Shown here piece after piece: positions 1,778 through 31,997 of a stretch of 37,639 nt of DNA; the first letter of the stretch is position 1; each line of letters starts with the position of its first letter. The notes under the pieces are model-generated. The model saw only the letters and a program-made list of their open reading frames with translations. It was not told where the DNA came from and searched no databases. The position numbers were made by a program, and so were the translations under genes. Where the stretch lies: contig PBBV01000011.1 of the NCBI GenBank assembly GCA_002717835.1, positions 12,199 to 49,837 on the forward strand, read 5' to 3'. Origin of the DNA: Methanobacteriota archaeon. Lineage in GTDB: Archaea > Thermoplasmatota > Poseidoniia > Poseidoniales > Thalassarchaeaceae.

Positions 1778-1840
1778 GATGCAACAACAATTCCGAAATC
1801 CTAATTTGGGAAGTGGATTGTTCACTATAGAAAAAAGATG

Positions 1841-1848
1841 TTTTTAAG
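1841..1848 (+). promoter_or_regulatory. TATA box of the heme operon (hemA)
   Basis: TTTTTAAG lies about 45 bases before the ATG at 1889, and would place the transcription start around 1870 with a short leader. It lies inside the N-terminal extension proposed by the ORF track (ATG 1838), which argues that translation really begins downstream. Confidence 0.5.
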
Positions 1849-1888
1849 ACAACTCAATTTGTTAACTTACAGTCGGGGGCGCATATGC

Positions 1889-3256
1889 ATGGATAGTGTG
1901 AACTTTGACTTCAGCAGGTTCCACGCAGAAGCGGCCAAATCAACCAGTAAAAGATCAAAATTGGATGAAATCAGAAAATTATCCATGATCGCCATTAAGC
2001 TATCCAACCAAACGATATCCTCCATAAAGAATCTAACCACCGAAGGCATGGATTCTGAGGAAAGAGCCAAACACGTCAGGATGATATCAAATAGGCTGCA
2101 AAACGACATTTTCGAGTTCTCTACATGTAATCGTGTGCTATATGTTGGCTTTGGAGTGCCAGTTGAAGAATTAGAGTATGCCGTACTGCAACAAAGCAAC
2201 ATGTCGAGCGCCCCTTTTGAAAAATTCCAAGGGATTGATGTCTGGAGGCATTTAGTGAAGGTGTGTAGCGGCCTGGATTCATTCATCATTGGGGAATTAC
2301 AAGTTATGGGGCAATTCAGAGGTGCTGTTTCATGGCACCGGAAAAATAAGTTAATTGGAGATCTGAACGCCTCTTTCTTTGATCACGTCATTGCCGCAAA
2401 CAGAACCGTTAGAAAAGAACTAGGATTCACTAAAACCACTGAATCAATGTTCAGTCTAGCGACCAAGGCCATAGAAGAATCAATGACTTCGGGCCAGACT
2501 TCAGCTGTAACCGTAGTTGGTTATGGGGACATGGGCAGGAAAGCGGTCGAAGCCTTGATTGACATGGGCCACGAGAACATAACTGTAGTCACAAGATCTA
2601 CAGTCAAAGCAGCAGGTAGGACGCCGCTGATTTCTAGAAAAATAAATTTCATCGAATTTGAAAAATGGGGGATTGAGGACAATCCAAGACTCATAATATC
2701 AACAATTAGAAACACAAATGCAACATTCAATCAGAATAGACCACTCCCAGTCATCAACAGGACACGTATTCTCGATTTTTCTTGGCCACCATCCATAGAC
2801 GAAACTGGAATTCATGAGGGGCAGGTCCTACTTGACATGAAACACTGGATCAGAACGGCACACAAGATGGAAATAGCATGGGATTATGAAAAAACGATAA
2901 AAAAAGGAGTCTCGATAATCGACGAAATCCAACGAAGATTTGAGAAAGTACTCGTTGATAAAAACCAAGCTGCTTTTCGAGCATTTATGTACGCGCAATT
3001 GGAATCTATGTCCAGCAACTGGGAATTAATGGGTTGCGAGGGTTCGGAAGCCGATCAGATGGCTACCTTTTCAAGAGAAATCGCTACTTGGATTTGTAGC
3101 CAAAAGGGAGAATTCCATCAGAAAGACCTGCAGGAGAAAGTAATCGGAACAAAAAGAGACATTTCCCCGCCTATATTGGAACTTATTGCGTCTGATGTAA
3201 TCAGGGAGATGATCAGGATTGATTCATCTGATAAACTCCCGGAGGTCATTGCTTGA
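1889..3256 (+). CDS. hemA: Glutamyl-tRNA reductase
   Basis: First committed step of the C5 route: reduces glutamyl-tRNA(Glu) with NADPH to glutamate-1-semialdehyde in the cytosol. I chose the ATG at 1889 (455 residues) rather than the ORF-track start at 1838, because a TATA box lies between them. Domains in order: a catalytic domain with STCNRV holding the nucleophilic Cys and a GELQVMGQ segment (family GEPQ-x-x-GQ); an NADP-binding domain with VVGYGDMGRKAVEAL; and a helical dimerisation domain at the C-terminus. About 35 extra residues precede the point where most family members begin (around MIAIKLSNQT). The Glu usual after CNRx is Leu here and the Pro of GEPQ is also Leu, so the protein is divergent, but the Cys and Arg of TCNR are kept. 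It overlaps hemCD by four bases. Confidence 0.92.
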   Translation: MDSVNFDFSRFHAEAAKSTSKRSKLDEIRKLSMIAIKLSNQTISSIKNLTTEGMDSEERAKHVRMISNRLQNDIFEFSTCNRVLYVGFGVPVEELEYAVLQQSNMSSAPFEKFQGIDVWRHLVKVCSGLDSFIIGELQVMGQFRGAVSWHRKNKLIGDLNASFFDHVIAANRTVRKELGFTKTTESMFSLATKAIEESMTSGQTSAVTVVGYGDMGRKAVEALIDMGHENITVVTRSTVKAAGRTPLISRKINFIEFEKWGIEDNPRLIISTIRNTNATFNQNRPLPVINRTRILDFSWPPSIDETGIHEGQVLLDMKHWIRTAHKMEIAWDYEKTIKKGVSIIDEIQRRFEKVLVDKNQAAFRAFMYAQLESMSSNWELMGCEGSEADQMATFSREIATWICSQKGEFHQKDLQEKVIGTKRDISPPILELIASDVIREMIRIDSSDKLPEVIA

Positions 3257-4938
3257 AAGAAATAAGAATTGGAACCAGGACCTCTAATTTAGCAATCTAT
3301 CAGGCAAAAAGAGTCAGCAATGCTCTCAAAAAGGCAGGATTTCAAACACAAATAGTGGAGATATCCTCGGATGGAGACTTCTCTCTTGGAGGCAATTTGT
3401 CAGATAATCTTGGTCAATTTGTCACTACTGTTGACAATGGACTGATCTCCGGATTAATAGATATCTCAGTTCACTCCAGCAAAGACGTTCCTGTTGATTA
3501 TGCTCGCTCGTTCGCCTGCTTGGCATATCTCCAAAGAGGCCCTACCAGCGACATAATCCTATTTAGAAAGCCTGAGGGAGTAAAAGCACTCTATCAGGTA
3601 CTGAAAGAAAAATCATCATCTTCGTTTCAAGAAGTCTTGTCCGTGATTCCCGCAGGGGGCAAATTTGGTTCATCATCAGTACGTAGACAATCATTTTTTC
3701 TTGCTAACAGAGAAGATGTTCTGCCACTAGCAATGAGGGGCAATGTCGAATCTAGAATCCAGAAATTAATCGAAGGCAAATTAGATGCTACTATTTTGGC
3801 GGAGGCAGGTCTCAGCCGCTTGAGTGAAATGGAAACTCTTTCTGAAAATATACTGGAGTTGGGCGCCCATAGGATACCATCCAAACACTGGCCTGCAGCC
3901 CCAGGGCAGGGTGCAATATGCATCCATTGTTTGTCCAGCAGAACGGAGGAATTCTCAACCATCAGAGAGATTCTCAATCACAAACAAACGGAAATCGATG
4001 TAACAATAGAGAAAGAGATGCTGAGAAGCCTCGGAGGAGGTTGCCAATATCCGGTGGGGATAGAATCCAATAGGGGCGATATCCAAGGCTTAATCGCCCC
4101 AGAAAATTGGCGGGAGATTCATTCAACTGGCAGTACATTTTCACTGAAGGAGATCCACGGAAAAGATGTCGATGGGATCAAATTTGATGCCCCTGATGAT
4201 TCAACTGAAGGAACAAATTCAGAATCTAAAATCGTCTCAACGCTGAACTCCGATCGTTTGAAGAAATCATTGCTAAAAATTGGCATCCCAACTATCAACA
4301 TTCCAGTCATAGAACTTGACCTAACACCAGAAAGTTGGCCAGAATTAACTTTCAATCAGTCTTCCCCTAAGTCAAATTGGCCAATCCTAATTCTTACCTC
4401 CCCATTCTCTGCCAGAGCTGCTTCTTTGATGACGTCTGAGATACCCAATCTCCAACGGATAATGTGGTTAGCAATCGGAGAAGGGACTGCTAGGGCTTGT
4501 TTTCGTTTGGGCTACCCTGCATCAATTTGTGCTGATTCCAGAAACCAAGCAGAATTACACGAGTACATCGTCAAGAATATTCGCCCGGAGGTTCCACTAT
4601 TCATCCCCCGATCCTCATCATCGTCCGGTGAGCTTGAAGAATTGTTGGCAATTGAGGGATACGAAGTATGTAGTTGGATTGCCTACACAAACTCCCCCAA
4701 AAAAATCAACGATGCTAGTATCAATGACGGAGATGTACTACTACTCTCATCCCCCTCGTCTGCCAAATCATGGGTTGAGAATAACTTGCCGATACCAGAC
4801 AGTGTGCTGTGTATGGGGGACTCGACAAAAACATCAGTTGAATTGCTAGACGGTTTTAGGGATAAAAGAATTAAGGTTCTGAAGGGTCCAACTCTTCAAG
4901 GAATATCTGACTGGTGGAATGAAAAAGAGAGGCAGTAA
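3253..4938 (+). CDS. hemCD: Fused hydroxymethylbilane synthase / uroporphyrinogen-III synthase
   Basis: A two-domain protein that polymerises four porphobilinogens to hydroxymethylbilane and then closes and isomerises the ring to uroporphyrinogen III. Residues 1-300 are HemC: IGTRTSNLAIYQAK at the start, HSSKDVP with the catalytic Asp, SSSVRRQ, MRGNVESRI, PAAPGQGAICI, and LGGGCQYPVG with the Cys that carries the dipyrromethane cofactor. Residues from about 330 to 561 fit HemD: ILTSPFSARAA and IPRSSSSSGELEELL followed by YEVCSWIAYTN, the usual layout of this weakly conserved fold. The reading frame is open throughout, so this is a true fusion. Start is TTG at 3253, overlapping the hemA stop by four bases, with GGAGGT six bases upstream. 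HemD is assigned by position and fold-like motifs and is less certain than HemC. Confidence 0.9.
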   Translation: MKEIRIGTRTSNLAIYQAKRVSNALKKAGFQTQIVEISSDGDFSLGGNLSDNLGQFVTTVDNGLISGLIDISVHSSKDVPVDYARSFACLAYLQRGPTSDIILFRKPEGVKALYQVLKEKSSSSFQEVLSVIPAGGKFGSSSVRRQSFFLANREDVLPLAMRGNVESRIQKLIEGKLDATILAEAGLSRLSEMETLSENILELGAHRIPSKHWPAAPGQGAICIHCLSSRTEEFSTIREILNHKQTEIDVTIEKEMLRSLGGGCQYPVGIESNRGDIQGLIAPENWREIHSTGSTFSLKEIHGKDVDGIKFDAPDDSTEGTNSESKIVSTLNSDRLKKSLLKIGIPTINIPVIELDLTPESWPELTFNQSSPKSNWPILILTSPFSARAASLMTSEIPNLQRIMWLAIGEGTARACFRLGYPASICADSRNQAELHEYIVKNIRPEVPLFIPRSSSSSGELEELLAIEGYEVCSWIAYTNSPKKINDASINDGDVLLLSSPSSAKSWVENNLPIPDSVLCMGDSTKTSVELLDGFRDKRIKVLKGPTLQGISDWWNEKERQ

Positions 4939-4940
4939 GA

Positions 4941-5906
4941 ATGCGTGCAAGAATAAACCGTTGGACTCCAGCAAGACGTAACCTCGTTTTTGATGACGAT
5001 ATCCGAACATCATTAGTGCAACCTCATTTTGTTGTCGCTGGAAAAGATGTTGATCAACCCATTCCGAGCATGCCAGGGATAAACCGTCAATCTGTAGACG
5101 TATTATTGAAAACCATCGATTTAGATATGAAAATGGGACTTTTTTCTCACATGTTATTCTTAGTGCTGGACGCGGAAAAGAAAGATCCCACCGCATCTTT
5201 TGCTTCAAATGCAAACTCCCCCTTACATGAAGCAATACGCGCACTCAAGAAAAAGTATGGAGGCGAGATAGTCATCATGACTGATTTGTGTTTATGCACA
5301 GGAACCGATCACGGTCACTGTGGAGTAATTAAAAGGAACAACATCGAGAATGACGAGACAGTTGAACACTTAGTCAAGATTGGCATGTCACACGCTAAAG
5401 CCGGGTCAGATTACATCTCTGCCTCAGATATGATGGACGGACGTATCGAACGTCTAAGAGGAAAACTCGAGGAGGAAGGATACCACTCGACCGGTTTAAT
5501 GTCCTACTCGGTCAAGTATGCGTCTTCATTTTACGGTCCTTTCCGCGATGCTGCTGAATCCAGTCCTGAGTTCGGGGATCGAAGAAGCCATCAGATGGAC
5601 ATTAGGTCAGGTTACTCGGAAGCTGTCATGCAGGCTCGCAATGACCAAAGTGAAGGTGCTGACATCCTCATGGTCAAACCCGGCTTACCATACTTAGACG
5701 TACTCCGAAAAGTCGCAGATGCCGTTGTTCGCCCTGTAGCAGTATACAATGTAAGCGGCGAATATTCGATGGTCATGGAAACCAACAAGAATTTGCTACA
5801 ACGGGCTCTTGTAGTCAGAGAGATTTTCAACTCATTCAAGAGGGCAGGAGCAGACATCATTGTCTCATATCATGCCAGGGAAGCAATTACTGAGAACTGG
5901 ATTTAA
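4941..5906 (+). CDS. hemB: Porphobilinogen synthase (delta-aminolevulinate dehydratase)
   Basis: Condenses two 5-aminolevulinate molecules to porphobilinogen. Length 321 is normal for the family. It has both active-site lysines, in SYSVKYASSFYGPFRDAA and in ILMVKPGLPYLD, and the cysteine-rich metal motif DLCLCTGTDHGHCG, which marks the zinc-dependent class rather than the magnesium-only class. RSGYSEAVMQA and AVYNVSGEYSM are further family blocks. ATG lies two bases after the hemCD stop, and the stop overlaps the first possible hemL start by one base, so translation is probably coupled. In the pathway this step comes before HemC, so operon order does not follow reaction order. Confidence 0.97.
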   Translation: MRARINRWTPARRNLVFDDDIRTSLVQPHFVVAGKDVDQPIPSMPGINRQSVDVLLKTIDLDMKMGLFSHMLFLVLDAEKKDPTASFASNANSPLHEAIRALKKKYGGEIVIMTDLCLCTGTDHGHCGVIKRNNIENDETVEHLVKIGMSHAKAGSDYISASDMMDGRIERLRGKLEEEGYHSTGLMSYSVKYASSFYGPFRDAAESSPEFGDRRSHQMDIRSGYSEAVMQARNDQSEGADILMVKPGLPYLDVLRKVADAVVRPVAVYNVSGEYSMVMETNKNLLQRALVVREIFNSFKRAGADIIVSYHAREAITENWI

Positions 5907-5917
5907 TGGTGTTTATC

Positions 5918-7213
5918 ATGAAACGAACTGAGTCTAATAGGTTACATGAGACTGCATTGGAGCACCTAGTGGGCGGAGTCAATTCCCCAGTTAGAGCATT
6001 CAAATCCGTCCATGGGAACCCAATTTATTTTGAGAGGGCTTCTGGAGCAATTGTTACGGATGTAGACGGTAATGAGTTAGTTGATTTCGTCCAGTCATGG
6101 GGTCCTCTTATCCACGGGCACGCACATCCAAAAATTCTTGAAAAAGTGTATCAAAAAATGCGAGATGGCACTTCTTTTGGAGCCCCTCACTTGGGCGAGA
6201 TCGAATTAGCCAGGCACGTCAAGCGAAGATTCGATCACATGGATATGGTGCGTTTCGTCTCTTCAGGCACAGAGGCAGTGATGAGCGCGATCCGACTTGC
6301 ACGAGGTTATACAAAACGAGAAATTTTGGTAAAATTCGATGGATGCTATCACGGTCATGTGGATTCTCTAATGGTGAAATCTGGAAGCGGGTTAGCTACA
6401 TTTGGAATCGCGAACAGCCCTGGAATCCCAAAAGACACGGTTGCAACAACTCTCGTTGCACCGCTTGATGACGTGGGGGCGGTGGAATATTTGTTTGAAG
6501 AGCATGGAGATGAAATTGCAGCAGTAGTCATCGAACCACTTCCTGCCAACAATGGGCTTTTGATACAATCTGGTGCGTTCCTGAAAAGATTGAGAAGTCT
6601 GTGCGACCAACATGGGGCGCTTCTAATCTTCGATGAGGTCATTTCAGGCTTCAGATTCAAGCATGGCAGCTACGGCCAGATGTGTGGAGTCACACCTGAT
6701 ATTTCTGCATTGGGCAAGGTGATTGGAGGAGGTCTGCCAGTTGGCGCATATGGCGCTCGTAGAGAAATAATGGAAAATCTTTCACCATTGGGCCCAGTCT
6801 ATCAGGCAGGAACACTTTCAGGAAACCCATTAGCAATGGCCGCTGGTTGCAAAACTCTCGAACTTCTCGATGGGCCAGCTTATGATTATCTGGAATCGCT
6901 TGGAAAGATTCTCGATGAAAATATTGAGCCTGTTCTTGCTAAGCACAACTATCCCATCCGCTTGGTAAGGTTAGGCAGTCTTTTCTGGTTTTCACCAGGT
7001 TCAGGCGATCCACCGAAACGCGCAGATCAGATTTCCAATGATGTTGGGATTTTCTATGCAGATCTTCACCATGGCCTGTTGGAGAGAGGTTACATGCTAG
7101 CGCCCTCGGCATACGAAATCGGATTCCTTTCCACTGCCCACGAAGAAATCCACATCACTGGAATGGCATTGGCTCTAGATGAATTATTAACCGAAATGGG
7201 GGCCGAATCTTGA
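5918..7213 (+). CDS. hemL: Glutamate-1-semialdehyde 2,1-aminomutase
   Basis: PLP enzyme that converts glutamate-1-semialdehyde to 5-aminolevulinate, working directly after HemA. It begins MKRTESNRLHETALEHL and continues LVGGVNSPVRAF, the usual N-terminal block; SSGTEAVMSAIRLARG binds the cofactor phosphate region; FDEVISGFR gives the Asp contacting the PLP ring; and SALGKVIGGGLPVGAYG has the PLP-binding Lys. The ORF track starts at 5906 (MVFIMKR). I prefer the ATG at 5918 because GGTG lies six bases before it and the protein then begins like its relatives, with 431 residues. With either start it is coupled to hemB; its end overlaps hemE by four bases. Confidence 0.96.
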   Translation: MKRTESNRLHETALEHLVGGVNSPVRAFKSVHGNPIYFERASGAIVTDVDGNELVDFVQSWGPLIHGHAHPKILEKVYQKMRDGTSFGAPHLGEIELARHVKRRFDHMDMVRFVSSGTEAVMSAIRLARGYTKREILVKFDGCYHGHVDSLMVKSGSGLATFGIANSPGIPKDTVATTLVAPLDDVGAVEYLFEEHGDEIAAVVIEPLPANNGLLIQSGAFLKRLRSLCDQHGALLIFDEVISGFRFKHGSYGQMCGVTPDISALGKVIGGGLPVGAYGARREIMENLSPLGPVYQAGTLSGNPLAMAAGCKTLELLDGPAYDYLESLGKILDENIEPVLAKHNYPIRLVRLGSLFWFSPGSGDPPKRADQISNDVGIFYADLHHGLLERGYMLAPSAYEIGFLSTAHEEIHITGMALALDELLTEMGAES

Positions 7214-8241
7214 ATGGAAAGGAACGGATTATCAGAGCCTTGAATCTGCAACCTGTTGATCGAACCCCTGTCTGGTTTATGCGGCAAGCCGGGCGTCACC
7301 TACCCGAGTATCGGAAGATCGCCTCGGAACATTCTTTTTGGGAGCGATGCCAGAATGTAGATCTGTGCACTGAAATCACACTCCAACCAATTCGCCGCTA
7401 CAAAACTCTGGATGCAGCGATTATTTTCAGCGATATATTGACGCCACTCCCTAGCCTTGGATACCATGTTGAATACGGTGGAGGCATTAGGATAAGCAAA
7501 TTCGAATTCCAAGATGTAGATGATTGGCCAGATTTTTCTGCTAGAAAACATGCACCTTGGGCTGCTGAGGGTTTGAAATCGGTGGGTGAGAAAGTTGGAG
7601 ACTCAGTAGCAAGATTAGGATTCGCAGGAGCCCCCTGGACGGTTTGCATGTATTTGATGGCAGGAGGAACAGGGGACAAGGACTTTCAAAATACTAGGGC
7701 AAAGATATTTTCAAACCATGAAAAATCCAAGAAGATGCTGAATAAAATGGGTGAGATAGTGGGCGACTTATTGGCCGATCAAGTCCTTTTCGGAGGAGCA
7801 GATGCCGTGCAATTATTCGATACATGGGCCGGTCTTCTCTCTCCTGAAATGTATCATAAATTTGCAATGCCAGCCACAAAAAAAGCGATTGACACATTCA
7901 GAAAAAAGGCTGGCGATGATATTCCGGTCATCCACTATGCTAAGGGGTCCGGGCATCTCCATCCAAGTATACGTAAGTTAGATTTGAACGCAATATCCTT
8001 GGATTGGAGAGACGATCTCGCTGAGAATCGTGCACGATACGGCAAAGAATTAGCCTTTCAAGGGAATCTGGACCCGTCATTACTACACGGGTCCGTAGAT
8101 GCAGCTCAACAAGCGACACGAGACGTCTTGAGGGCCGCTGGTGAAGAACCAGGACACATTTTCAATCTCGGTCACGGATTTGCTCCCGCAGCTAGAATCG
8201 AATGTGTCGAAGCCGTTTTGAAAGTCATTTCAGGTGAATAA
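7210..8241 (+). CDS. hemE: Uroporphyrinogen-III decarboxylase
   Basis: Removes four acetate carboxyls from uroporphyrinogen III to give coproporphyrinogen III. Its presence commits the pathway to the classical (non-siroheme) route. It starts at TTG within a TTGA overlap with hemL. Near the N-terminus [18 protein letters not shown] holds the two conserved arginines that grip the substrate carboxylates; [12 protein letters not shown] has the catalytic Asp; [17 protein letters not shown] and the C-terminal FNLGHGFAP are further family blocks. Length 343 is normal. No other part of the active site looks altered. Confidence 0.97.
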
Positions 8242-8242
8242 G

Positions 8243-9151
8243 ATGCGGCAGCAAATGATTGACATGGTTTACCGTGTTCAAGACGAGATTTGCAAAACTC
8301 TGTGTGAACTGGATGGCGTGGATTTCCGAGAAGATATATGGAATCGAGATGAGGGAGGAGGGGGTCGAAGTCGTGTGTTCTCAGGAGGCTCGGTGTTCGA
8401 CAAAGCAGGAGTCAATGTCAGTGTAGTCCACGGGAGATTAGAGCGTGAGGCTGCTCGTTCCATGGGCGGAGGGAAGATTTTGGGTGATGAGGATTTGGAT
8501 TTTTTCGCCACGGGCCTCAGCTTAGTACTCCACCCCAAGAATCCAATGGCCCCAACTGTTCATTCGAATTATCGCTACTTTGAACGTGGTGACGCCACAA
8601 AAGAAGGTAGCTGGTGGTTTGGAGGAGGTGCTGATTTAACTCCTAGCTACCTCTTCGAAGAAGACGCTCGCCACTTCCATTCCACACTGAAAGCGGTCTG
8701 CGATCGACATGAGGTTGCAGACTATCCAAATTTCAAAAAATGGTGTGATGATTATTTTCATATCAAACATCGTAATGAGCGTCGCGGCGTCGGGGGAATA
8801 TTTTTTGATGACTTACGTTTAACAGATAAGGAAAAATGTTTCAATTTTGTTCAAGACTGCGCTGATTCGTTTTTGTCGTCTTACATCCCCATCCTATCAA
8901 GACGAAAGGATTTGCCATTCACAGAGGAAAACAGTAAATGGCAACAAATTCGGAGAGGACGTTACGTCGAGTTTAATCTGGTGTATGATCGAGGCACTAC
9001 CTTTGGCCTGAGGACAAATGGGAGAATTGAAAGCATCTTGATGTCACTTCCCTTGACTGCAAGATGGGAATATTGTCATGAAATAGAATCCGATTCTGAG
9101 GAAGAGCGCCTACTCAAAGTTTTGAAAAATCCAATAGACTGGGTCAAGTGA
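8243..9151 (+). CDS. hemF: Oxygen-dependent coproporphyrinogen-III oxidase
   Basis: Uses O2 to decarboxylate two propionates of coproporphyrinogen III, giving protoporphyrinogen IX. The match is strong along its length: [68 protein letters not shown] and [16 protein letters not shown]. The histidines thought to take part in substrate and oxygen chemistry are present. The ORF track uses the GTG at 8234, but that GTG is part of a GGTG ribosome binding site six bases before the ATG at 8243, so I start there (302 residues). Having HemF rather than radical-SAM HemN means this cell makes heme only with oxygen, unless a HemN lies elsewhere. Confidence 0.96.
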
Positions 9152-9163
9152 AAGGGTTTCGTA

Positions 9164-10444
9164 ATGTATCTGCTTCAAGACTGGATCAGATACGGGGATG
9201 AATTACGCCGTCCACTCCATATCCTCCCCAAGGTATCCTCGTCCTCGCACATTGCGATTGTAGGCGGCGGCCTTTCGGGTCTAACAACAGCATATCGCAT
9301 CGCGGAGAAAAGACCTGATATCTCCATTACTCTGATTGAGAAGGGAAAATCGCTGGGAGGTGTAATCAGCACATGGAAAGATGGCGAATGGTGCTGTGAC
9401 TTGGCAGTTAATGCAACTCGGCCACACCCTGCAGTTTGGCGATTGGTTGATGATATCGGTCTAGGGGAGAAGTTTCACCCATCAAACCACGCCGTTCGCA
9501 GACGCTGGATTTACGAGAACGGCAAATCGCACCCTCTGAACCCCCTGACAGCAATCAAGATTGGTCCGTTGAATATCCTCAGGTCAATCAATAAAGTGCG
9601 TAAAGGAGGACTTTCAGTCGACCAGTTAATCCCAAACAAAATGATCGCTGACGCGATGACACTTGGCATTGTGAACGATACCGCAGCCAATGTGGATGCT
9701 GATTTCTTATTTCCTAGATTGACCAGATTCGGGCGAAACCCTGCTAAAAGGTGGTCTTCGATTAAAAGAAAGATAAAACAAACATACCCTCTTTTTACAC
9801 CCAAGAGAGGGACTGTCGCTTCTTTTGAGGGAGGCATGAGTACTTTGGTGAACCAATTGGAAAAACAAATCGGAAAATTACCAAATGTCAAGATTCTGCT
9901 TAACACTAGTTTCGAAAATACGGGCCAAGCAGCAGATTTCTTCGGAATTCCTGAATCATCGGTAATTTGGGCAGCCCCTGTGAATAATGAGAGACCCTCC
10001 AATAAGCTATCCGTATTCGTAATCGGTTACAAGGAGGCAGATGTTAAATCTGTAAAGAAGGGATATGGCACACTAATTCCTGAATCAGACATCCCAATAA
10101 GTGGCATTCTTCACGAATCGGATATTCATGGATCAAGAAGAGCACCAATCGGACATCGTCTGTTCAGAATTATGGTCCCGCATTCTAGGTGGGATGGCGA
10201 CAATGAGGAAATTAGGCAATATGTTCGAGAATTATTGTCTAATGCAGATCCAGTAATTTTCGAGAAGATAGGTGAAAGAACGATTCCCTCGTACCCCCCA
10301 GGATATCTATCGAAAATTTCCAATAGTGACATCTCAATCAATCGAATCGGATGGAGTTTCTCAGGAGTGTCAATAACACATGTGATAGCAGAAGCTGAGC
10401 GAGTTGCAGATTTTTTTAACAATAAAGCGGGCGGTTCAGCCTAG
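9164..10444 (+). CDS. hemY: FAD-dependent protoporphyrinogen oxidase (HemY/PPO type)
   Basis: Oxidises protoporphyrinogen IX to protoporphyrin IX with O2 as acceptor. The dinucleotide-binding motif HIAIVGGGLSGLTTAYRIAE begins about 30 residues in, followed by LIEKGKSLGGVIST. The C-terminal GWSFSGVSITHVIAEAERVA is the second FAD-contact block of the family. The 426-residue length is a little short compared with many HemY enzymes. It could instead act on coproporphyrinogen (CgoX), since the two are not separable by eye, but HemF just upstream favours the protoporphyrin route. It is the last gene of the operon, and no ferrochelatase follows. Confidence 0.88.
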   Translation: MYLLQDWIRYGDELRRPLHILPKVSSSSHIAIVGGGLSGLTTAYRIAEKRPDISITLIEKGKSLGGVISTWKDGEWCCDLAVNATRPHPAVWRLVDDIGLGEKFHPSNHAVRRRWIYENGKSHPLNPLTAIKIGPLNILRSINKVRKGGLSVDQLIPNKMIADAMTLGIVNDTAANVDADFLFPRLTRFGRNPAKRWSSIKRKIKQTYPLFTPKRGTVASFEGGMSTLVNQLEKQIGKLPNVKILLNTSFENTGQAADFFGIPESSVIWAAPVNNERPSNKLSVFVIGYKEADVKSVKKGYGTLIPESDIPISGILHESDIHGSRRAPIGHRLFRIMVPHSRWDGDNEEIRQYVRELLSNADPVIFEKIGERTIPSYPPGYLSKISNSDISINRIGWSFSGVSITHVIAEAERVADFFNNKAGGSA

Positions 10445-24623: not shown

Positions 24624-26030
24624 CTAAACCCCATATTCTACAGGAAGTAGAGTTTCCACTCCGAAAAGAGGATCCGGATCACTCGAATCATGATATGCCA
24701 CTACGGCACCGCCATCGGGAAGAATACCCATTGAAGCGAAATCAAATCTTATGTCATTTCCAGCCCCACTTGTTGAATCTAAGTCACCAAGGCCAATGTT
24801 TGTTCTAAGGTCCGGCTCAAGAGATTGAGAATAATCTCGGACGTGCCAGGATACGTCGATATCTGGTCCGCTCGAAGATTGATACCTTACATTGAGAACA
24901 AATAGATCATGAAAACCATTCGAATGAAATTCCCATTCCTCCAATTCAGACCCAAAACCAGAAAGATCGTATGTCTGAATTTCCCATGCCTCTCCTCCAT
25001 CTGACGATACCATATGTGTGATGGTTATACCGTCTGCCCGGACACAATGAAGAATCCCACTAGAATCAAATGAGCAGTATTGTGATGGAAGGGATGACCC
25101 ATTCAGTGTCACTCCTGTCCACCAATTCAAGGAAGTGTCCAAATAGGCATCGTCACCGTCGAGAAAATAATCAGGAAAGTAAAGGCCACCCGAAGGTACA
25201 GGGAATGCACGCATCTCTTTGTGAGGTTTGGTGTAATCCCATTCCTTCCCAAGGGGTCCCGGCATCAGATCTACTTCTATGGAGGGCAAATTCGAATCCC
25301 TGTCCGGGAATCCGAAATAATCGTAATTCAGACCATCAGTGGAAATTTGCCCACCAACGTTCTGGACTTGATGCCAGAAGTTTGAGATTACTAAACTAGC
25401 ATAGGGTCCGTTGCCATATAACCCTCCACTGATAGGCCCTACTACTTCTACTTGCCAAGATCTGTCGTAAAAGGGCTCGGGAGTCCTATTGAAGCACCAA
25501 CTCCACTCTTCATCTTCAGCGTCGTAAAAGAAGGCATAGAACTGATCAGCACCAGATGTTGAAGGATAAGGGAACCAGCCCATAGCAATCAGGTCCCCGT
25601 TGGTGGCCTGTACTATGCTGCCTTCCCCAAGTCCTTCTTGACCTGGAACTGTGGGTTTAGGTTCCATACATCCAATTTGCGAGAAGACTGAAGGGACGTA
25701 TTCCTGCCAAGTTCTGCCCCTATCTTCTGACCAGGTCGGGTACTCGCCCCCAAAATTCAGTATCCAACCTTCCTTGGTAATGGCAAGATAATGCTCACAG
25801 CAGTTCCCCCCCTCCTCATTTCCAAATACGGCCCAGTTCGACTCACCTATGGAACCGTTTTCGAAAGCATATGCAACTGAAAAGTTACGAACATCATCGA
25901 GACCCTCAAGCGAAAGTTGGGTAAGACCCTCATCCCACACTACACTATTTTCCGATTCTCCGGGGTTCTCCCCCATACAACCTGAAAGTACCATTGCAGA
26001 CAATAGCAAGGCAGTTGTCCATTCCCTCAT
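24624..26030 (-). CDS. Surface lipoprotein with Asp-box (BNR-like) repeats
   Basis: 468 residues from the ATG at 26030 (the ORF track begins at a GTG eight codons earlier). MREWTTALLLSAMVLSGC is a lipoprotein signal with Cys at residue 18, followed by an acidic linker. At least two Asp-box-like units, SEDRGRTWQEY and SSDGGEAWEIQ, suggest a beta-propeller of the sialidase/exo-alpha type. Aromatic and Gly/Ser-rich segments fill the rest. No catalytic residues of sialidases are evident, so it may be a binding protein rather than an enzyme. It is divergent from the amidohydrolase fusion, also surface-exposed; the two could be partners but nothing shows it. Confidence 0.75.
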   Translation of the reverse strand: MREWTTALLLSAMVLSGCMGENPGESENSVVWDEGLTQLSLEGLDDVRNFSVAYAFENGSIGESNWAVFGNEEGGNCCEHYLAITKEGWILNFGGEYPTWSEDRGRTWQEYVPSVFSQIGCMEPKPTVPGQEGLGEGSIVQATNGDLIAMGWFPYPSTSGADQFYAFFYDAEDEEWSWCFNRTPEPFYDRSWQVEVVGPISGGLYGNGPYASLVISNFWHQVQNVGGQISTDGLNYDYFGFPDRDSNLPSIEVDLMPGPLGKEWDYTKPHKEMRAFPVPSGGLYFPDYFLDGDDAYLDTSLNWWTGVTLNGSSLPSQYCSFDSSGILHCVRADGITITHMVSSDGGEAWEIQTYDLSGFGSELEEWEFHSNGFHDLFVLNVRYQSSSGPDIDVSWHVRDYSQSLEPDLRTNIGLGDLDSTSGAGNDIRFDFASMGILPDGGAVVAYHDSSDPDPLFGVETLLPVEYGV

Positions 26031-26138
26031 TACCCCTAACCCGTGCCATGACACTAATGGAAATTTTGCTAATATGATGACTTCAAGGAATTGTCGATCT
26101 TAAGATGATTTGATATCCCGTCTCATAGTCTAGGGAAT

Positions 26139-28712
26139 GTGAACCGAGCTGCCGCATTCACCATGGCCCTACTCCTCCTACAACTAACGACTCCAGTAGT
26201 TGCCCAGGATAATGATCCCAGAATAATCATCACGGAGGTGTACGTGTCGCCCAACAGCGCTGATTATGGAGGTATAGATTGGAATGGAGATGGGGAAATT
26301 GGAAGATACTCGAACCAATTTATAGAACTGCACAACCCTGGAAATGATGCTATTGATGTTGGAGGCTGGTGGCTCGATGACACGCCAGGACAAGGCTCTC
26401 CAGCGTGCTCCATAGGTTTTGGAACAGTAATTGAGCCAGGCGCATACGTCACATTTTTCCGAGCACTCACTAGAATCGAATTAGATTTCTTTGAAGGAGA
26501 CTCCGTCACTCTTTCAGATAGCTCAAAAGCACTCGTTGACAGCATGGGATACTACGGGCCTCAGACATGGGAAGGATCTGCGTATGAGGTTGGAAACTCA
26601 TCCTACGGCATCTCCTTCGGCGTTGATTCTGCTGGCGTGTGGTCGGAAATAAGTTCTGGTCCAACTCCAGGCGGGCCGAATGACGAACCATGGGTCGGAA
26701 CCAATCACCTGCAGGGTTCCTGCTATGGAGTCAGGGATGATGTCCACAGTGGTTCCTACATTCTTGAAGGCAGAATAGTGACGATGGAATCTGAGAATTC
26801 AGTTATCGATCAAGGCCGCATACTTGTCACTGATGGAGTTATAGAAGCGGTTTGGGATGCGTCCTCACCTGCCCCTGACGCGGCAGAGGGAGTAACTTCT
26901 ATCCCTACAAGCGGGACAATTTATCCCGGATTCATAGACCCACATAATCATGCAAAATACAATCTGATACCTTTGTGGGACCATGGTACTGATGGCTGGG
27001 ATAATCGCTATCAATGGCAGTCTTATTCTGGATACTCAGATGCCAAGGATATCGGATGCTCGCTCTACGACTCATCAGCGATGAGATTCGCTGAATTAAG
27101 GGCAATCGCTGGAGGAAATACCGCACTTCAGGGAAGTGCCAACTCAAATACCGATACATTCGATTCTATACTTGCAAGAAACATAGAGCTCTACAATTTC
27201 GAAAAGGACTCGATTCACACCAAAGTGACGGAGTTGGAGTCCGATTACATTGGAAATCACATCAAGACTGGAAATAACTCTGGAACCCTCGATGCATGGT
27301 TCATACATCTGGCGGAAGGAATCGACGAATCGAGTAGATCCGAGTTTGATGTCCTAGTTCAGAATAATTTGCTAGTTGGCGAGATAGTCATAGTGCATGG
27401 AACTGCATTAACCCAGACAGAATTCAATGCTCTCGGCAACGTAGGTGGAAGCCTTGCATGGTCACCCACATCGAACCTCCTCTTGTATGGAGAAACTACC
27501 GATATCAAAACCGCCAAAGAAGAAGGCGTGAATATCATGATTGGCCCAGATTGGGGGCCATCAGGATCCAAGAGCTCGATGCACGAGCTGAAGACTGCCG
27601 ATTGGTGGGATCAGAATGTACTTGGGAACATATTTTCAGATTTTGAATTAGTCCAGACTATATCGACAAATGTTGTTGATGCAATTGGATGGTCCGAATT
27701 CACGGGAAGAATCGTACCCGGTCTCGCTGCAGATCTGGTCGTGCTTGACACGTTTCACGCCGATCCTTACAGGAATGTGATTCAGGCAGTGGATCCGGAT
27801 GTACGCCTCGTAGTCGTAGGAGGACTCCCTGTTTATGGGGATCTAGACATAATGCAAGCAATGGATGATGATGCTGAGGTGATACATGGAATTGGCTTTA
27901 GTAAGGCAATCGACATCACATACGAGGGAGTCCCAGAGGCCCAGCAGACATATGCAGACATGATGGAATATCTCGGTCAATGCAATCAAGGTAAAACAGT
28001 CCCAATTGAATATCTCTTCACCATGGGGGATGAGAGATACTTCGATGTACTAAACCGCTCATCAACGTTTCAAAATGGACGTTCTATAGACCTCTGGACG
28101 ATGTATTATGACGTTGATTTGGATGAAAACGGACACAGAGTCGGGGGAACCGTCGGAGGAGCAGACCCAATAGAGACAAGCATAAACAGCGACAATGGCG
28201 GAGGTTCCCAGGCAATAGACCCAATACAACTCCCACAGATATTCGAGACATACGGCCCTCTGGGCGCAACAGTCGCGCACCCGATAGAAATGTCTCGGGG
28301 CATCCATCTCGAGGCCTGTGGCAGTGAATCGTCAATACTTCTTGCAGAGGGCGTCCCCTCTACACCTTCAGGACGAGAACTCGTCTGCGGCTCAGTGTCT
28401 ATCAGAACAGTTCCTGGAGAGGGCTGCCTTGCAACCCCAGACGCAAATTTTTGTGGCATAGGCGTCGGAGGGGCAATCGCCACCCCCGGACAACTTTGCG
28501 CAGAACTCCTAATGCCCGCAGGGGTAGAGTGTAGGGACGCATGGTCCTTCTTCGAGCCCGCGGGTGAACCATCCGAACCTGGCCCTGCAACACTAGAAGG
28601 AGAGGACTCAACAATCAGCGGACCTATCTACTGGATTGCAGTAATTGGATTATTAGGTCTCATAATAAGTTCGTTAACCGTTGCAATAACCAACTGGAAT
28701 CGTAGGAAGTAA
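26139..28712 (+). CDS. Secreted, membrane-anchored lamin-tail-domain/amidohydrolase fusion
   Basis: An 857-residue exported protein. Residues 1-22 are a signal peptide ending VVAQ. About 28-170 is a lamin-tail-type domain (IIITEVYVSPN, then QFIELHNPGNDAIDVGGWWL), a fold found on bacterial surface proteins and nucleases. From about 205 to 575 is an amidohydrolase: FIDPHNHAKYN gives His269 and His271, AWFIHLAEG His390, IVIVHGTAL His420 and IMIGPDWGPSGS Asp471, so all metal ligands of the deaminase-like subtype are present. PGLAADLVVLD is the usual closing block. The C-terminus has a hydrophobic span (YWIAVIGLLGLIISSLTVAI) and a basic end, giving a cell-surface anchor. It should hydrolyse or deaminate an external substrate, probably a nucleoside or cyclic amide, but which is not shown. 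Start is GTG at 26139. Confidence 0.88.
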   Translation: MNRAAAFTMALLLLQLTTPVVAQDNDPRIIITEVYVSPNSADYGGIDWNGDGEIGRYSNQFIELHNPGNDAIDVGGWWLDDTPGQGSPACSIGFGTVIEPGAYVTFFRALTRIELDFFEGDSVTLSDSSKALVDSMGYYGPQTWEGSAYEVGNSSYGISFGVDSAGVWSEISSGPTPGGPNDEPWVGTNHLQGSCYGVRDDVHSGSYILEGRIVTMESENSVIDQGRILVTDGVIEAVWDASSPAPDAAEGVTSIPTSGTIYPGFIDPHNHAKYNLIPLWDHGTDGWDNRYQWQSYSGYSDAKDIGCSLYDSSAMRFAELRAIAGGNTALQGSANSNTDTFDSILARNIELYNFEKDSIHTKVTELESDYIGNHIKTGNNSGTLDAWFIHLAEGIDESSRSEFDVLVQNNLLVGEIVIVHGTALTQTEFNALGNVGGSLAWSPTSNLLLYGETTDIKTAKEEGVNIMIGPDWGPSGSKSSMHELKTADWWDQNVLGNIFSDFELVQTISTNVVDAIGWSEFTGRIVPGLAADLVVLDTFHADPYRNVIQAVDPDVRLVVVGGLPVYGDLDIMQAMDDDAEVIHGIGFSKAIDITYEGVPEAQQTYADMMEYLGQCNQGKTVPIEYLFTMGDERYFDVLNRSSTFQNGRSIDLWTMYYDVDLDENGHRVGGTVGGADPIETSINSDNGGGSQAIDPIQLPQIFETYGPLGATVAHPIEMSRGIHLEACGSESSILLAEGVPSTPSGRELVCGSVSIRTVPGEGCLATPDANFCGIGVGGAIATPGQLCAELLMPAGVECRDAWSFFEPAGEPSEPGPATLEGEDSTISGPIYWIAVIGLLGLIISSLTVAITNWNRRK

Positions 28713-28713
28713 C

Positions 28714-30174
28714 TCATGGGTCCTTCATCCGCCATGTGGCGCCAGTATCCCTGTCCTCGATAACTACTCCAAGGTTAGAGATTTCATTCCTGATTCTGTC
28801 GGCCTCTTCCCAATCACGCTGGGAGCGAGCCTCCTCTCTCTCCGCTATGAGGCTCTCGACCTTATCTCTGATCTCATCGCGTCGTTCAGATGCTTCGCCT
28901 ATCATCTTCTGGATTGACTCCTTGTCGGGAAGTAGTCCAAGTACATCGCCTGCATATGCGGAAAGCCAACCTATGCATGCAGACGCCAACATAGGGTCAT
29001 GAGATGAATTGGCTTGCCTCAGTATCTTGACAACAGATTGCATCTCTGCTATAGCTACCCTCGTATTGAGGTCGTCGTCCATGCCCCGTATTAGTGAATT
29101 TTCAGCATTTTTTAGCAACTCAATATCTTCCCATTGCCTAGCTACGCTGAGTCCTCCTGCAGAAATAATCGATTCAATCAGCCTAGCATAGTTCTTCTCT
29201 GCATCATCAAGAAGAACTTGATTGAAATCGATGGGTTGCCGATATGGAGCATTGATGAGTGCGTATCTGAGTACCATGGGGCCAACTGCATCAATTGCAT
29301 CAGAAACTGTCCAAAAGTTACCCAGAGACTTCGACATTTTCTCCCCGTTCACGTTAATCATCCCGTTATGCATCCAATGTCTTGCAAAAGGCTCGATATT
29401 GAAACAGCATTCTGATTGGAATATTTCTGCTTCATGATGGGGAAACATAAGGTCTGAACCACCACCGTGAATGTCCACTTGGTGTCCAAAGTGTTCGTGA
29501 ACCATAGCTGAACATTCAATATGCCAACCAGGCCTTCCCTTCCCAAATGGGCTATCCCAGCTGGGCTCGCCTTGCTTTGCAATTTTCCAGAGGGCGAAGT
29601 CTCTGTGATCTTTTTTTCCCACTCCAGTAGATGCAACTCTGCCACCGGCACCAGATCGGACCATTTCTAGCGTCTGCCCGGTTAGGCGCCCATACTTTTC
29701 AGGCGCTGTATCTATTTCGAAGTAAATCCCATCACCGGCTGCATAAGCATGTCCTTTTTCCATCAGGGTTTCAATCATTGAAATTATTCCAACAATACTT
29801 TCCGTAACTCTTGGATAGGCATCAGCATCGAGTACGTTGAGTTTTTTCATTGAAATCCTGTAGTCCAAAATATGACGATTTGTCAACTCTAGAAAATCGA
29901 CTCCTTCCTTTTTTGAAGCATCGATTATCGTATCGGATATGTCTGTGAAATTGGTAATATATCTAACACCAACACCTTGGAATCTGAGCCATCTCACCAG
30001 AGTGTCGAATGCTATGGCTTGACGTGCGTGGCCGATATGGCTGGGCGAATAGGGAGTAATTCCACAGGCATAGATTGTAACTTCTTCACCCGAGACGTCG
30101 ATTTCCTGTTTTGTGCGCGATGCTGTGTTGTAAAGCCTCAGAGGCACATGCTGGCACCCTAGGCCAATGGTCAT
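28714..30174 (-). CDS. cysS: Cysteinyl-tRNA synthetase
   Basis: Charges tRNA(Cys). YACGITPYSPSHIGHARQ contains the zinc-ligand Cys and the HIGH motif; GWHIECSAMVHEHFG and HHEAEIFQSE supply further zinc ligands; EKMSKSLGNFWT is the KMSKS loop. Length 486 is normal and the C-terminal alpha-helical domain is complete, ending ATWRMKDP. It overlaps the preceding amidotransferase gene by four bases and ends two bases from the stop of the amidohydrolase gene on the opposite strand. A stand-alone CysRS means the organism need not use the indirect SepRS route. Confidence 0.97.
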   Translation of the reverse strand: MTIGLGCQHVPLRLYNTASRTKQEIDVSGEEVTIYACGITPYSPSHIGHARQAIAFDTLVRWLRFQGVGVRYITNFTDISDTIIDASKKEGVDFLELTNRHILDYRISMKKLNVLDADAYPRVTESIVGIISMIETLMEKGHAYAAGDGIYFEIDTAPEKYGRLTGQTLEMVRSGAGGRVASTGVGKKDHRDFALWKIAKQGEPSWDSPFGKGRPGWHIECSAMVHEHFGHQVDIHGGGSDLMFPHHEAEIFQSECCFNIEPFARHWMHNGMINVNGEKMSKSLGNFWTVSDAIDAVGPMVLRYALINAPYRQPIDFNQVLLDDAEKNYARLIESIISAGGLSVARQWEDIELLKNAENSLIRGMDDDLNTRVAIAEMQSVVKILRQANSSHDPMLASACIGWLSAYAGDVLGLLPDKESIQKMIGEASERRDEIRDKVESLIAEREEARSQRDWEEADRIRNEISNLGVVIEDRDTGATWRMKDP

Positions 30175-30866
30175 GAACTTCTCGCCGCTTCAACCAACGC
30201 AGCATACATCTGGTACTGATTTATTCTTTCAGGATGCCATTGCAGTCCATGGAAGAACTTCAAGTGTTCATACACAACTGATTCGACAAGGCCATCATGA
30301 CTTGCTCTTCCTGTCACTTTCAGACCCCCGGTATCTCGGACACCTTGGTGGTGCGTGGAATTAACCGATATACTATTTCCGAGTATCCTCTGAATTTCTG
30401 TCCCTTGTTCAAAAGTGACTTCGTGATCTGAAAAATCACCGTTCCACGAGCCATGAGACTCATATCCGGTAGTTTTGGGGAGATGCTGATGCATAGACCC
30501 ACCTTCTGCTACACACATTATTTGCATACCCCTGCATATGCCCAATACCGGTAAATCTGCATCAATGGATGCCTTGATCAGAGCAATCTCACGCCTGTCT
30601 TGATTGGGATATGTGTCGAGAGTATCAGGGTCCAACTCAGCACCGTACATCGATGGATTAATGTCTGGCCCACCGGAAATGACTAGCCCATCTATGGCCG
30701 ATATTACGTCAATAGCACCATCTTCCGGTGGAAGTATGACTGGAATGCCTCCACCCTCCATTACAGCAAGAGCGTAGGTAGCGGGTATGACAGTCGCATC
30801 CATGTCCCATGGACCCCATTTCGTCATGCGAGTGGGCGCAGTTATTCCAATAACTGGCCTACCCAT
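30171..30866 (-). CDS. Class I glutamine amidotransferase (peptidase C26/PuuD-like), copy 1
   Basis: A one-domain hydrolase of the gamma-glutamyl-GABA hydrolase type. I start at the Met at 30866 (231 residues), which gives MGRPVIGITAPTRM and follows a GAGG run; the ORF-track extension is unlike the family. LVISGGPDINPSMYG, LGICRGMQIM (nucleophile Cys) and LQWHPE (His and Glu of the triad) are intact, with VNSTHHQGV between. Members cleave gamma-glutamyl amides or transfer ammonia; no partner domain is fused. It overlaps cysS by four bases and follows its paralog, so the two are probably co-expressed. Confidence 0.88.
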   Translation of the reverse strand: MGRPVIGITAPTRMTKWGPWDMDATVIPATYALAVMEGGGIPVILPPEDGAIDVISAIDGLVISGGPDINPSMYGAELDPDTLDTYPNQDRREIALIKASIDADLPVLGICRGMQIMCVAEGGSMHQHLPKTTGYESHGSWNGDFSDHEVTFEQGTEIQRILGNSISVNSTHHQGVRDTGGLKVTGRASHDGLVESVVYEHLKFFHGLQWHPERINQYQMYAALVEAARSS

Positions 30867-30904
30867 GTTGATTCCTCTGCGCCTGAGGAAATGAACCCAC
30901 CCAT

Positions 30905-31588
30905 TCAAATTGCAGCTTGAACTAGTGCAGAGACTAATGACTCCTGTCCAAGAGCTTCCGGATGCCACTGTACCGACATAACAAATTTTTGCGACGGATC
31001 CTCTAAACCCTCAATCAGACCATCTTCTGATCTAGCATTTACTTCTAGGTCCCCCGGGTCAGATACACCCTGATGGTGCGCTGAGTTCACTTGAGAAGAT
31101 AACCCAATAATCTTAGAAAGCTTGGATTCAGGTGTTATGATCACCTCATGATTAGACCATTTTCCGCCCCACGCTCCATGTTTTTCGTAGGGCGAGGTAG
31201 AGGGAAGGTGCTGATGAAGAAAACCTCCGTATGAGACAGCCATTAGCTGGTGACCTCTACAGATTCCAAGTATTGGCAACCCCTTCTTCTTTGCAGAGTC
31301 AATCAATGCAAGTTCCCACAGGTCCTGTGAGGGACGTACATCATTTGTTTCAGGCATAGAATCTCGCCCGTATGTAGCCGGATCAATATCCCTTCCTCCA
31401 GCAATTATCAGAGCGTCTATCGCACTGACACACCCATCTGGGTCCCCTCCCTCAGATAATATCAGGGGTAGGCCGCCGCATTGTTCTACAATTGATGGAT
31501 AATTCCAGGGAAGCATTACCACATCACGATCATCGGATTCGTAATCCCTCTTATTTACGGAAGAAGTGATGCCGATCCTCGGTTTCAT
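30905..31588 (-). CDS. Class I glutamine amidotransferase (peptidase C26/PuuD-like), copy 2
   Basis: A paralog of the next gene with the same layout: MKPRIGITSSV at the start, ALIIAGGRDIDPATYG, LGICRGHQLMAVSYGG with the nucleophile Cys, VNSAHHQGV and VQWHPEAL. 227 residues from the ATG at 31588, five bases after the stop of the upstream gene; the ORF-track start would overlap that gene. Both copies keep the full triad, so neither is decaying. Differences around the substrate pocket (for example GGRDIDP against GGPDINP) suggest the two act on different substrates or form a heterodimer. Confidence 0.88.
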   Translation of the reverse strand: MKPRIGITSSVNKRDYESDDRDVVMLPWNYPSIVEQCGGLPLILSEGGDPDGCVSAIDALIIAGGRDIDPATYGRDSMPETNDVRPSQDLWELALIDSAKKKGLPILGICRGHQLMAVSYGGFLHQHLPSTSPYEKHGAWGGKWSNHEVIITPESKLSKIIGLSSQVNSAHHQGVSDPGDLEVNARSEDGLIEGLEDPSQKFVMSVQWHPEALGQESLVSALVQAAI

Positions 31589-31592
31589 GCAA

Positions 31593-31997
31593 TCAGCTCT
31601 CTCGATTAAGACGAGCATGCCTAAACGATTTGACTCCTACAAATATGAAAGAGGCTCCAACAAGCACCAGCAACATATGGGAAACCAACACAAGCTCAGA
31701 CATCTCCGAAAAACTCATCAGCATTCTAGATGCTCCTGCTAAGAACATAACCAGTGCTACGACCATCGAAGCATGCATGTAGTGGTGCCTGTTCGCTTCG
31801 TTGAATTTCGAAAGCACGCCCATCATGAGAAGTGGAAGGCCCATGAAAGCTGGAATCATCGCAGTAATGGAAGGATCTTCGCCGGGTGGCGGGGTCTGGG
31901 AGAAATATGAGAAAACACCCCAGGCAATTAGGATGCACCCATACAGGTTCGAAAGTCCAGGTACAGTCATTCCCCATTGAGTAAATTCATTGCTCAT
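31593..31997 (-). CDS. Four-span membrane protein
   Basis: 134 residues, not recognised. Four hydrophobic stretches (LYGCILIAWGVFSYF, AFMGLPLLMMGVLS, ASMVVALVMFLAG and SHMLLVLVGASFIFVGV), a short extracellular-looking loop rich in Pro and Asp, and a basic end, FRHARLNRES. It sits between the acyl-CoA dehydrogenase and the amidotransferase pair on the same strand. A TATA-like element (ATCATAAATC) about 23 bases upstream overlaps the dehydrogenase stop, so it may have its own promoter. Confidence 0.72.
   Translation of the reverse strand: MSNEFTQWGMTVPGLSNLYGCILIAWGVFSYFSQTPPPGEDPSITAMIPAFMGLPLLMMGVLSKFNEANRHHYMHASMVVALVMFLAGASRMLMSFSEMSELVLVSHMLLVLVGASFIFVGVKSFRHARLNRES

Follow-up and report, generated by a model that had tools for sequence, protein, structure and literature searches.

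The 857-residue protein encoded at 26139..28712 (+) of the window, the 37,639-nucleotide stretch of DNA from a Thalassarchaeaceae genome analysed here, joins an N-terminal export signal, a lamin-tail domain (LTD), an amidohydrolase domain and a C-terminal membrane helix. Taken as a whole, it is probably a surface-anchored type I protein whose enzyme domain acts as a metal-dependent C-N amidohydrolase on small dissolved molecules. Its placement in the deaminase-like branch of the subtype III mononuclear amidohydrolases, in an external and membrane-anchored form, is well supported. The original prediction had recognised the signal peptide, LTD, amidohydrolase, C-terminal region and membrane anchor within one protein, an arrangement that Pfam, hydropathy and the orthologues confirm. 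Its further proposal of an external enzyme draws good support from the domains, the conserved ligands, a profile match to the atrazine chlorohydrolase AtzA and the export and anchor features.

The reading frame begins with GTG and occupies exactly the interval given above. In the alignment, R3 is near-invariant and orthologues begin with MR at the same place, supporting the GTG start. Its parts, all on the + strand, begin with a putative signal peptide (aa 1-22, 26139..26204), MNRAAAFTMALLLLQLTTPVVA followed by QD, in which the N-terminal hydrophobic segment ends at PVVA. The LTD (PF00932, aa 25-139, 26211..26555) scores 49.5 bits against a gathering cut-off of 34.3 and covers profile positions 4-108 of 109 (E 6.4e-13); it is the sole LTD found in this genome. 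Within it lies a DWNGDG motif (aa 47-52, 26277..26294) that is conserved in the archaeal copies and resembles a calcium loop, suggesting that it may bind calcium. The following linker (26556..26747) carries C195, which, like C90 of the LTD, is near-invariant in the alignment, and the two could form a disulfide. The amidohydrolase domain spans aa 204-575 (26748..27863, the end being approximate) according to Pfam, alignments and profile search. Here too the Pfam cut-offs are exceeded, both for PF01979 (aa 401-562, 50.3 bits vs. 25) and for PF07969 (41.9 bits vs. 29.7).

Alignment further delimits a post-barrel extension with an xLxPxxTxxDxxYF-type motif (aa 576-660, 27864..28118), which is common to the enzyme clade. 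The Cys-rich C-terminal part (aa 697-805, 28227..28553) has no match in a Pfam search. Six of its cysteines (C727, C750, C763, C772, C787 and C798) are conserved in copies from marine group IIb (MGIIb, Thalassarchaeaceae), while in MGIIa (Poseidoniaceae) other sequences mostly replace this part. Hydropathy places a membrane helix at about aa 829-850, followed by the basic tail TNWNRRK; helix and tail together occupy 28623..28709. By the positive-inside rule, the basic residues after the helix predict a type I topology, which would put the enzyme on the outer side of the membrane. Most complete archaeal copies have both the N-terminal hydrophobic segment and the C-terminal helix, as judged from hydropathy and not from SignalP.

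All five predicted metal ligands are present: H269 and H271 in the HxH motif H-N-H (26943..26951), H390 in HLAE (27306..27317), H420 (27396..27398) and D471 in the clade signature DWGPSG (27549..27566). E393 of HLAE, a putative catalytic glutamate, can be added to them. Of the 34 full-length copies in the alignment, all have H269, H390, E393, H420 and D471 and 33 have H271, so that the HxH, His, His, Asp and HxxE pattern of subtype III recurs with this one exception; in a 13-sequence alignment of archaea and proteobacteria all six are invariant. The same archaeal and proteobacterial comparison gives further invariant residues (Y274, N275, P278, W280, R290, W293, R347, N348, E350, S442, P443, S445, N446, W472, P474, S475 and G476), and D, W, P, S and G of the DWGPSG motif are invariant across archaea and bacteria. 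The enzyme domain belongs to a distinct clade with the signature YNxxPxW, RxxW, RNxE and DWxPSG.

A profile made from 34 diverse enzyme cores was searched against solved structures. The best matches were subtype III enzymes, namely AtzA (1.3e-23), MTA/SAH deaminase (6.9e-21) and guanine deaminase (1.7e-16). The ligand-bearing segments align with H66, H68, H243, H276 and D327 of AtzA, the crystallographic ligands of the subtype III site, and E393 aligns with AtzA E246, for which a role in water activation or charge stabilisation has been proposed (PMC4356373). Structure models were of low confidence, with a mean AlphaFold2 pLDDT of 49.9 for the full length (28-sequence alignment) and 39.2 for the enzyme domain (41 sequences), most likely because these alignments were shallow. 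A Foldseek search with the full-length model nevertheless placed AtzA and deaminases on top (E about 1e-11); with an rmsd near 12 Å this amounts to agreement on the family and is no test of metal-site geometry.

The most probable reading of the protein is an enzyme at the cell surface that hydrolyses or deaminates small nitrogen-containing molecules. The ectodomain of a type I membrane protein would face outwards, with the LTD and the Cys-rich C-terminal part serving as surface or attachment modules. A single metal ion would be held by H269, H271, H390, H420 and D471, and E393 and D471, acting as acid/base by homology, would activate the metal-bound water. The activated water would then attack the sp2 carbon of a C-N group (an amidine, amide or N-heterocycle) in a small dissolved molecule, releasing ammonia or opening a ring at the cell surface for uptake. 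This class of chemistry, C-N hydrolysis at an amidine-like or heterocyclic carbon, is suggested because the domain belongs to the subtype III branch. The idea that the enzyme processes a dissolved organic compound is reasonable, but the domain points to no particular substrate, as it lies far below the curated cut-offs of all named deaminase families. Guanine deaminase (TIGR02967, 68.5 bits vs. a cut-off of 375.4), MTA/SAH deaminase (NF012037, 20.4 vs. 779) and the N-ethylammeline chlorohydrolase type including AtzA (NF004701, 37 vs. 609) are each rejected on these cut-offs. The neighbouring genes hold no clue to the substrate. A more specific form of the proposal, that marine group II (MGII) archaea possess a surface-tethered deaminase with a new substrate family, which frees ammonium from dissolved organic nitrogen (N-heterocycles) and which close relatives gain and lose as one unit, is tentative and at present rather doubtful.

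An amidase-type substrate is also possible. Secreted amidohydrolases elsewhere are often carboxypeptidase- or dipeptidase-like, which would speak for an amidase, peptidase-like or lactonase-like enzyme, with peptides, N-acyl amino acids or related compounds as substrates, in place of a deaminase or N-heterocycle hydrolase. Moreover, most of the hydrolases that MGII are so far described to export are peptidases (PMC6336850, PMC6864105), and peptidase genes adjoin some of the plasmid-borne relatives discussed below. However, the best profile matches are all mononuclear subtype III enzymes that act on C-N or C-Cl bonds of heterocycles, while the binuclear types (prolidase, carboxypeptidase and hydantoinase) rank far lower, and the motifs HLAE and D-x-x-x-S agree with the deaminase branch. 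This makes a peptide- or amide-directed enzyme unlikely, if still the strongest of the competing explanations.

The LTD is a domain familiar above all from the nucleus of animal cells. Bacterial LTDs accompany membrane-associated hydrolases, and targeting to membrane-associated structures has been suggested for them (PMC6085458); another proposal is that they bind DNA (PMC4486849). Several extracellular nucleases contain an LTD (PMC6085458, PMC4486849, PMC8289736), and guanine and MTA/SAH deaminases are among the closest solved enzymes, as would be expected if the LTD bound extracellular DNA or RNA and the enzyme deaminated the freed bases or nucleosides. Related loci include one with an LTD and OB-fold-like repeats and another with LTDs and PLD-family domains, which would fit the same reading. 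The first (L101:2350-4365, +) lies beside the lipoprotein gene in another genome; its OB-fold-like repeats are a weak Pfam match, and it recalls the N-terminal half of ExeM. The second (L085:1402-3831, +), from another Thermoplasmatota family, has two LTDs and two PLD-like domains in one protein. On the other hand, no nuclease or nucleobase gene adjoins the window gene, the scores for guanine and MTA/SAH deaminase are far below their cut-offs, and ExeM remains largely active without its LTD (PMC6085458). Processing of nucleic-acid debris appears improbable.

The original prediction suggested looking for the same architecture in other marine archaea, and it recurs across both Poseidoniales families. 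The species genome collection contains 45 loci, and 108 of 390 Thermoplasmatota genomes match, nearly all of them Poseidoniales (marine group II). They comprise 36 Thalassarchaeaceae (the family of the window), 68 Poseidoniaceae and 4 genomes outside the order, the family names being inferred. Poseidoniales copies carry the LTD, some of them twice (L044, L093), and three enzyme-bearing Thermoplasmatota outside the order (L082-L084) have none. Among bacteria, sampled here from plasmids, single-domain relatives annotated as 'amidohydrolase family protein' are found in Rhizobium, Azospirillum, Enterobacter, Variovorax and Massilia (L076-L081). Scans of viral contigs gave no relative, the lone phage match being weak and covering 125 residues, and PADLOC returned no defence match for the window protein or the tested plasmid relatives.

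The plasmid loci have some features of their own. At one of them, AbiH and helicase genes lie nearby. The Azospirillum relative (L077:4693-7509, +) has an N-terminal extension of roughly 430 aa with no Pfam or PDB match; its GINPN and MPHAS motifs presumably recall uracil-DNA glycosylases. On the Rhizobium and Variovorax plasmids, the amidohydrolase is adjoined by a homologous gene pair (L076:7726-9039 and L080:4747-5976, 36% identity), one member of which is annotated as cytochrome P460 family.

The LTD-amidohydrolase is under strong purifying selection. Comparison of the window gene with four close orthologues by the Nei-Gojobori method gave a whole-gene dN of 0.034-0.040 and a dS of 0.97-1.22; because dS is near saturation, the resulting dN/dS of about 0.03 overall (about 0.033) and about 0.02 in the enzyme domain is approximate. 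Of the three parts, the enzyme domain has the lowest dN (0.017-0.019), followed by the LTD (0.028-0.047) and the C-terminal part (0.063-0.079).

A divergent lipoprotein gene and cysS flank the gene in the window, at almost every MGIIb locus and at several of the MGIIa loci. In one genome of the same genus (G039), the protein at this locus (L098:3256-4476, -) retains the signal peptide, LTD, C-terminal part and membrane helix and has no amidohydrolase: its 407-aa frame lacks residues about 197-695 in frame. The LTD and C-terminal part of G039 are about 46% identical to the window protein, and the complete protein of another member of the genus (G158) is 70% identical over its whole length. In G212, the lipoprotein gene (92% identical) and cysS (88%) are only about 70 bases apart, so the gene is cleanly absent, and it is likewise absent at this locus in G399, G061 and G182. 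Loss of the enzyme domain in G039 and of the whole gene elsewhere indicates that the enzyme is dispensable and that the LTD and anchor unit can outlive it. The enzyme therefore looks like an accessory, niche-dependent trait and not a housekeeping function.

The lipoprotein (24624-26054, -) has the lipobox LSGC and one Asp-box-like motif, SEDRGRTW, and is strongly conserved across Poseidoniales (57-94% identity), with no Pfam, NCBIfam or PDB match. It is retained in G039 and in all four genomes that lack the LTD-amidohydrolase, and was rejected as an obligatory functional partner for this reason. Elsewhere in the window, 30171-31618 (-) holds a tandem pair of Peptidase_C26 (class I glutamine amidotransferase-like) genes, which lie side by side with an overlap and are conserved at this place in many MGIIb loci. 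At 1838-10444 (+), the N-termini of the gene products resemble, by eye, a haem biosynthesis cluster (HemA, HemC, HemB, HemL, HemE, HemF and HemG).

The G039 protein also bears on the role of the LTD. LTDs occur in 47 of 60 genomes of the window's family, often several per protein of 1,500 aa or more, and large proteins of this family have them singly or as arrays of several copies. Together with the LTD kept in G039, these LTD-rich proteins make a general role at the surface or in attachment more likely than binding of the substrate, and the LTD resembles a surface module that does not depend on the enzyme. The LTD had been predicted to act in either attachment or substrate binding; attachment fits better, also in view of the exported relatives that have no LTD. 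Taken further, loss of the enzyme with retention of the rest, in a family where LTD proteins are common, might indicate a non-catalytic surface or adhesion protein with the amidohydrolase fold as a relic. Conservation of the ligands and E393 (H271 in 33 of 34 copies) and the lowest dN of the three parts in the enzyme domain make this very improbable. An assembly chimera or annotation artefact, conceivable for a genome in 31 contigs and 79% complete, is refuted by the dozens of independently assembled genomes that carry the same fusion at this locus, leaving it a practically negligible prospect.

Among the planktonic archaea of the surface ocean, the Poseidoniales are the most abundant; they have been described as without cultured representatives (PMC6461757). 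An anchored, conserved amidohydrolase would add a different chemistry to an MGII surface so far populated mostly by peptidases (PMC6336850, PMC6864105). If the tentative reading as a surface deaminase is true, nitrogen in the surface ocean would be remineralised by a route that has gone unrecognised. Because presence, domain loss and absence occur as clean states of one locus, a comparison of genomes with habitats could test the ecological role of the enzyme. The combination of LTD and amidohydrolase was not found in the limited collection of literature searched, and the terms amidohydrolase, lamin and deaminase are absent from the main text of three major MGII genome papers.

Deaminase-type amidohydrolases had been taken as normally cytosolic, which holds only as a rule of thumb, since secreted amidohydrolases such as the Aspergillus ochratoxinase and animal ADA2/ADGF exist. 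The nearest solved structures are AtzA (4v1x), MTA/SAH deaminase (4f0r) and guanine deaminase (6ohb), and the HxH, H, H and D ligands and HxxE glutamate are those of the ATZ/TRZ-deaminase branch of subtype III. The spacing of H390, H420 and D471 (30 and 51 residues) is close to that in AtzA (33 and 51). In contrast, the segment from HxH to H390 is 119 residues long against 175 in AtzA, about 56 shorter, which suggests that the substrate pocket or its side differs. Of the AtzA specificity residues, Asn328 is replaced by Trp472 and Ser331 is kept as Ser475. The plasmid relatives belong to the same enzyme clade, with 31-34% identity over about 400 aa and the same signature and post-barrel extension, but unlike the archaeal copies they have no signal peptide, LTD or, by hydropathy, membrane helix. 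The other Thermoplasmatota (L082-L084) share the clade and the signal peptide; L082 and L084 also have the C-terminal anchor, and L084 has CARDB domains in place of the LTD. Unlike the enzymes of the ATZ/TRZ-deaminase branch, the archaeal copies are exported and anchored according to their sequence features, have signature motifs of their own and fall below all curated family cut-offs. An LTD joined to a hydrolase at the cell surface is already a known kind of protein. ExeM of Shewanella consists of a signal sequence, LTD, OB-like region, EEP nuclease and C-terminal hydrophobic region (PMC6085458), and the window protein shares this layout in its signal peptide, N-terminal LTD, catalytic domain and C-terminal hydrophobic anchor. 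Whereas the hydrolase accompanying the LTD elsewhere is a nuclease, metallo-beta-lactamase or calcineurin-type phosphoesterase, here it is an amidohydrolase.
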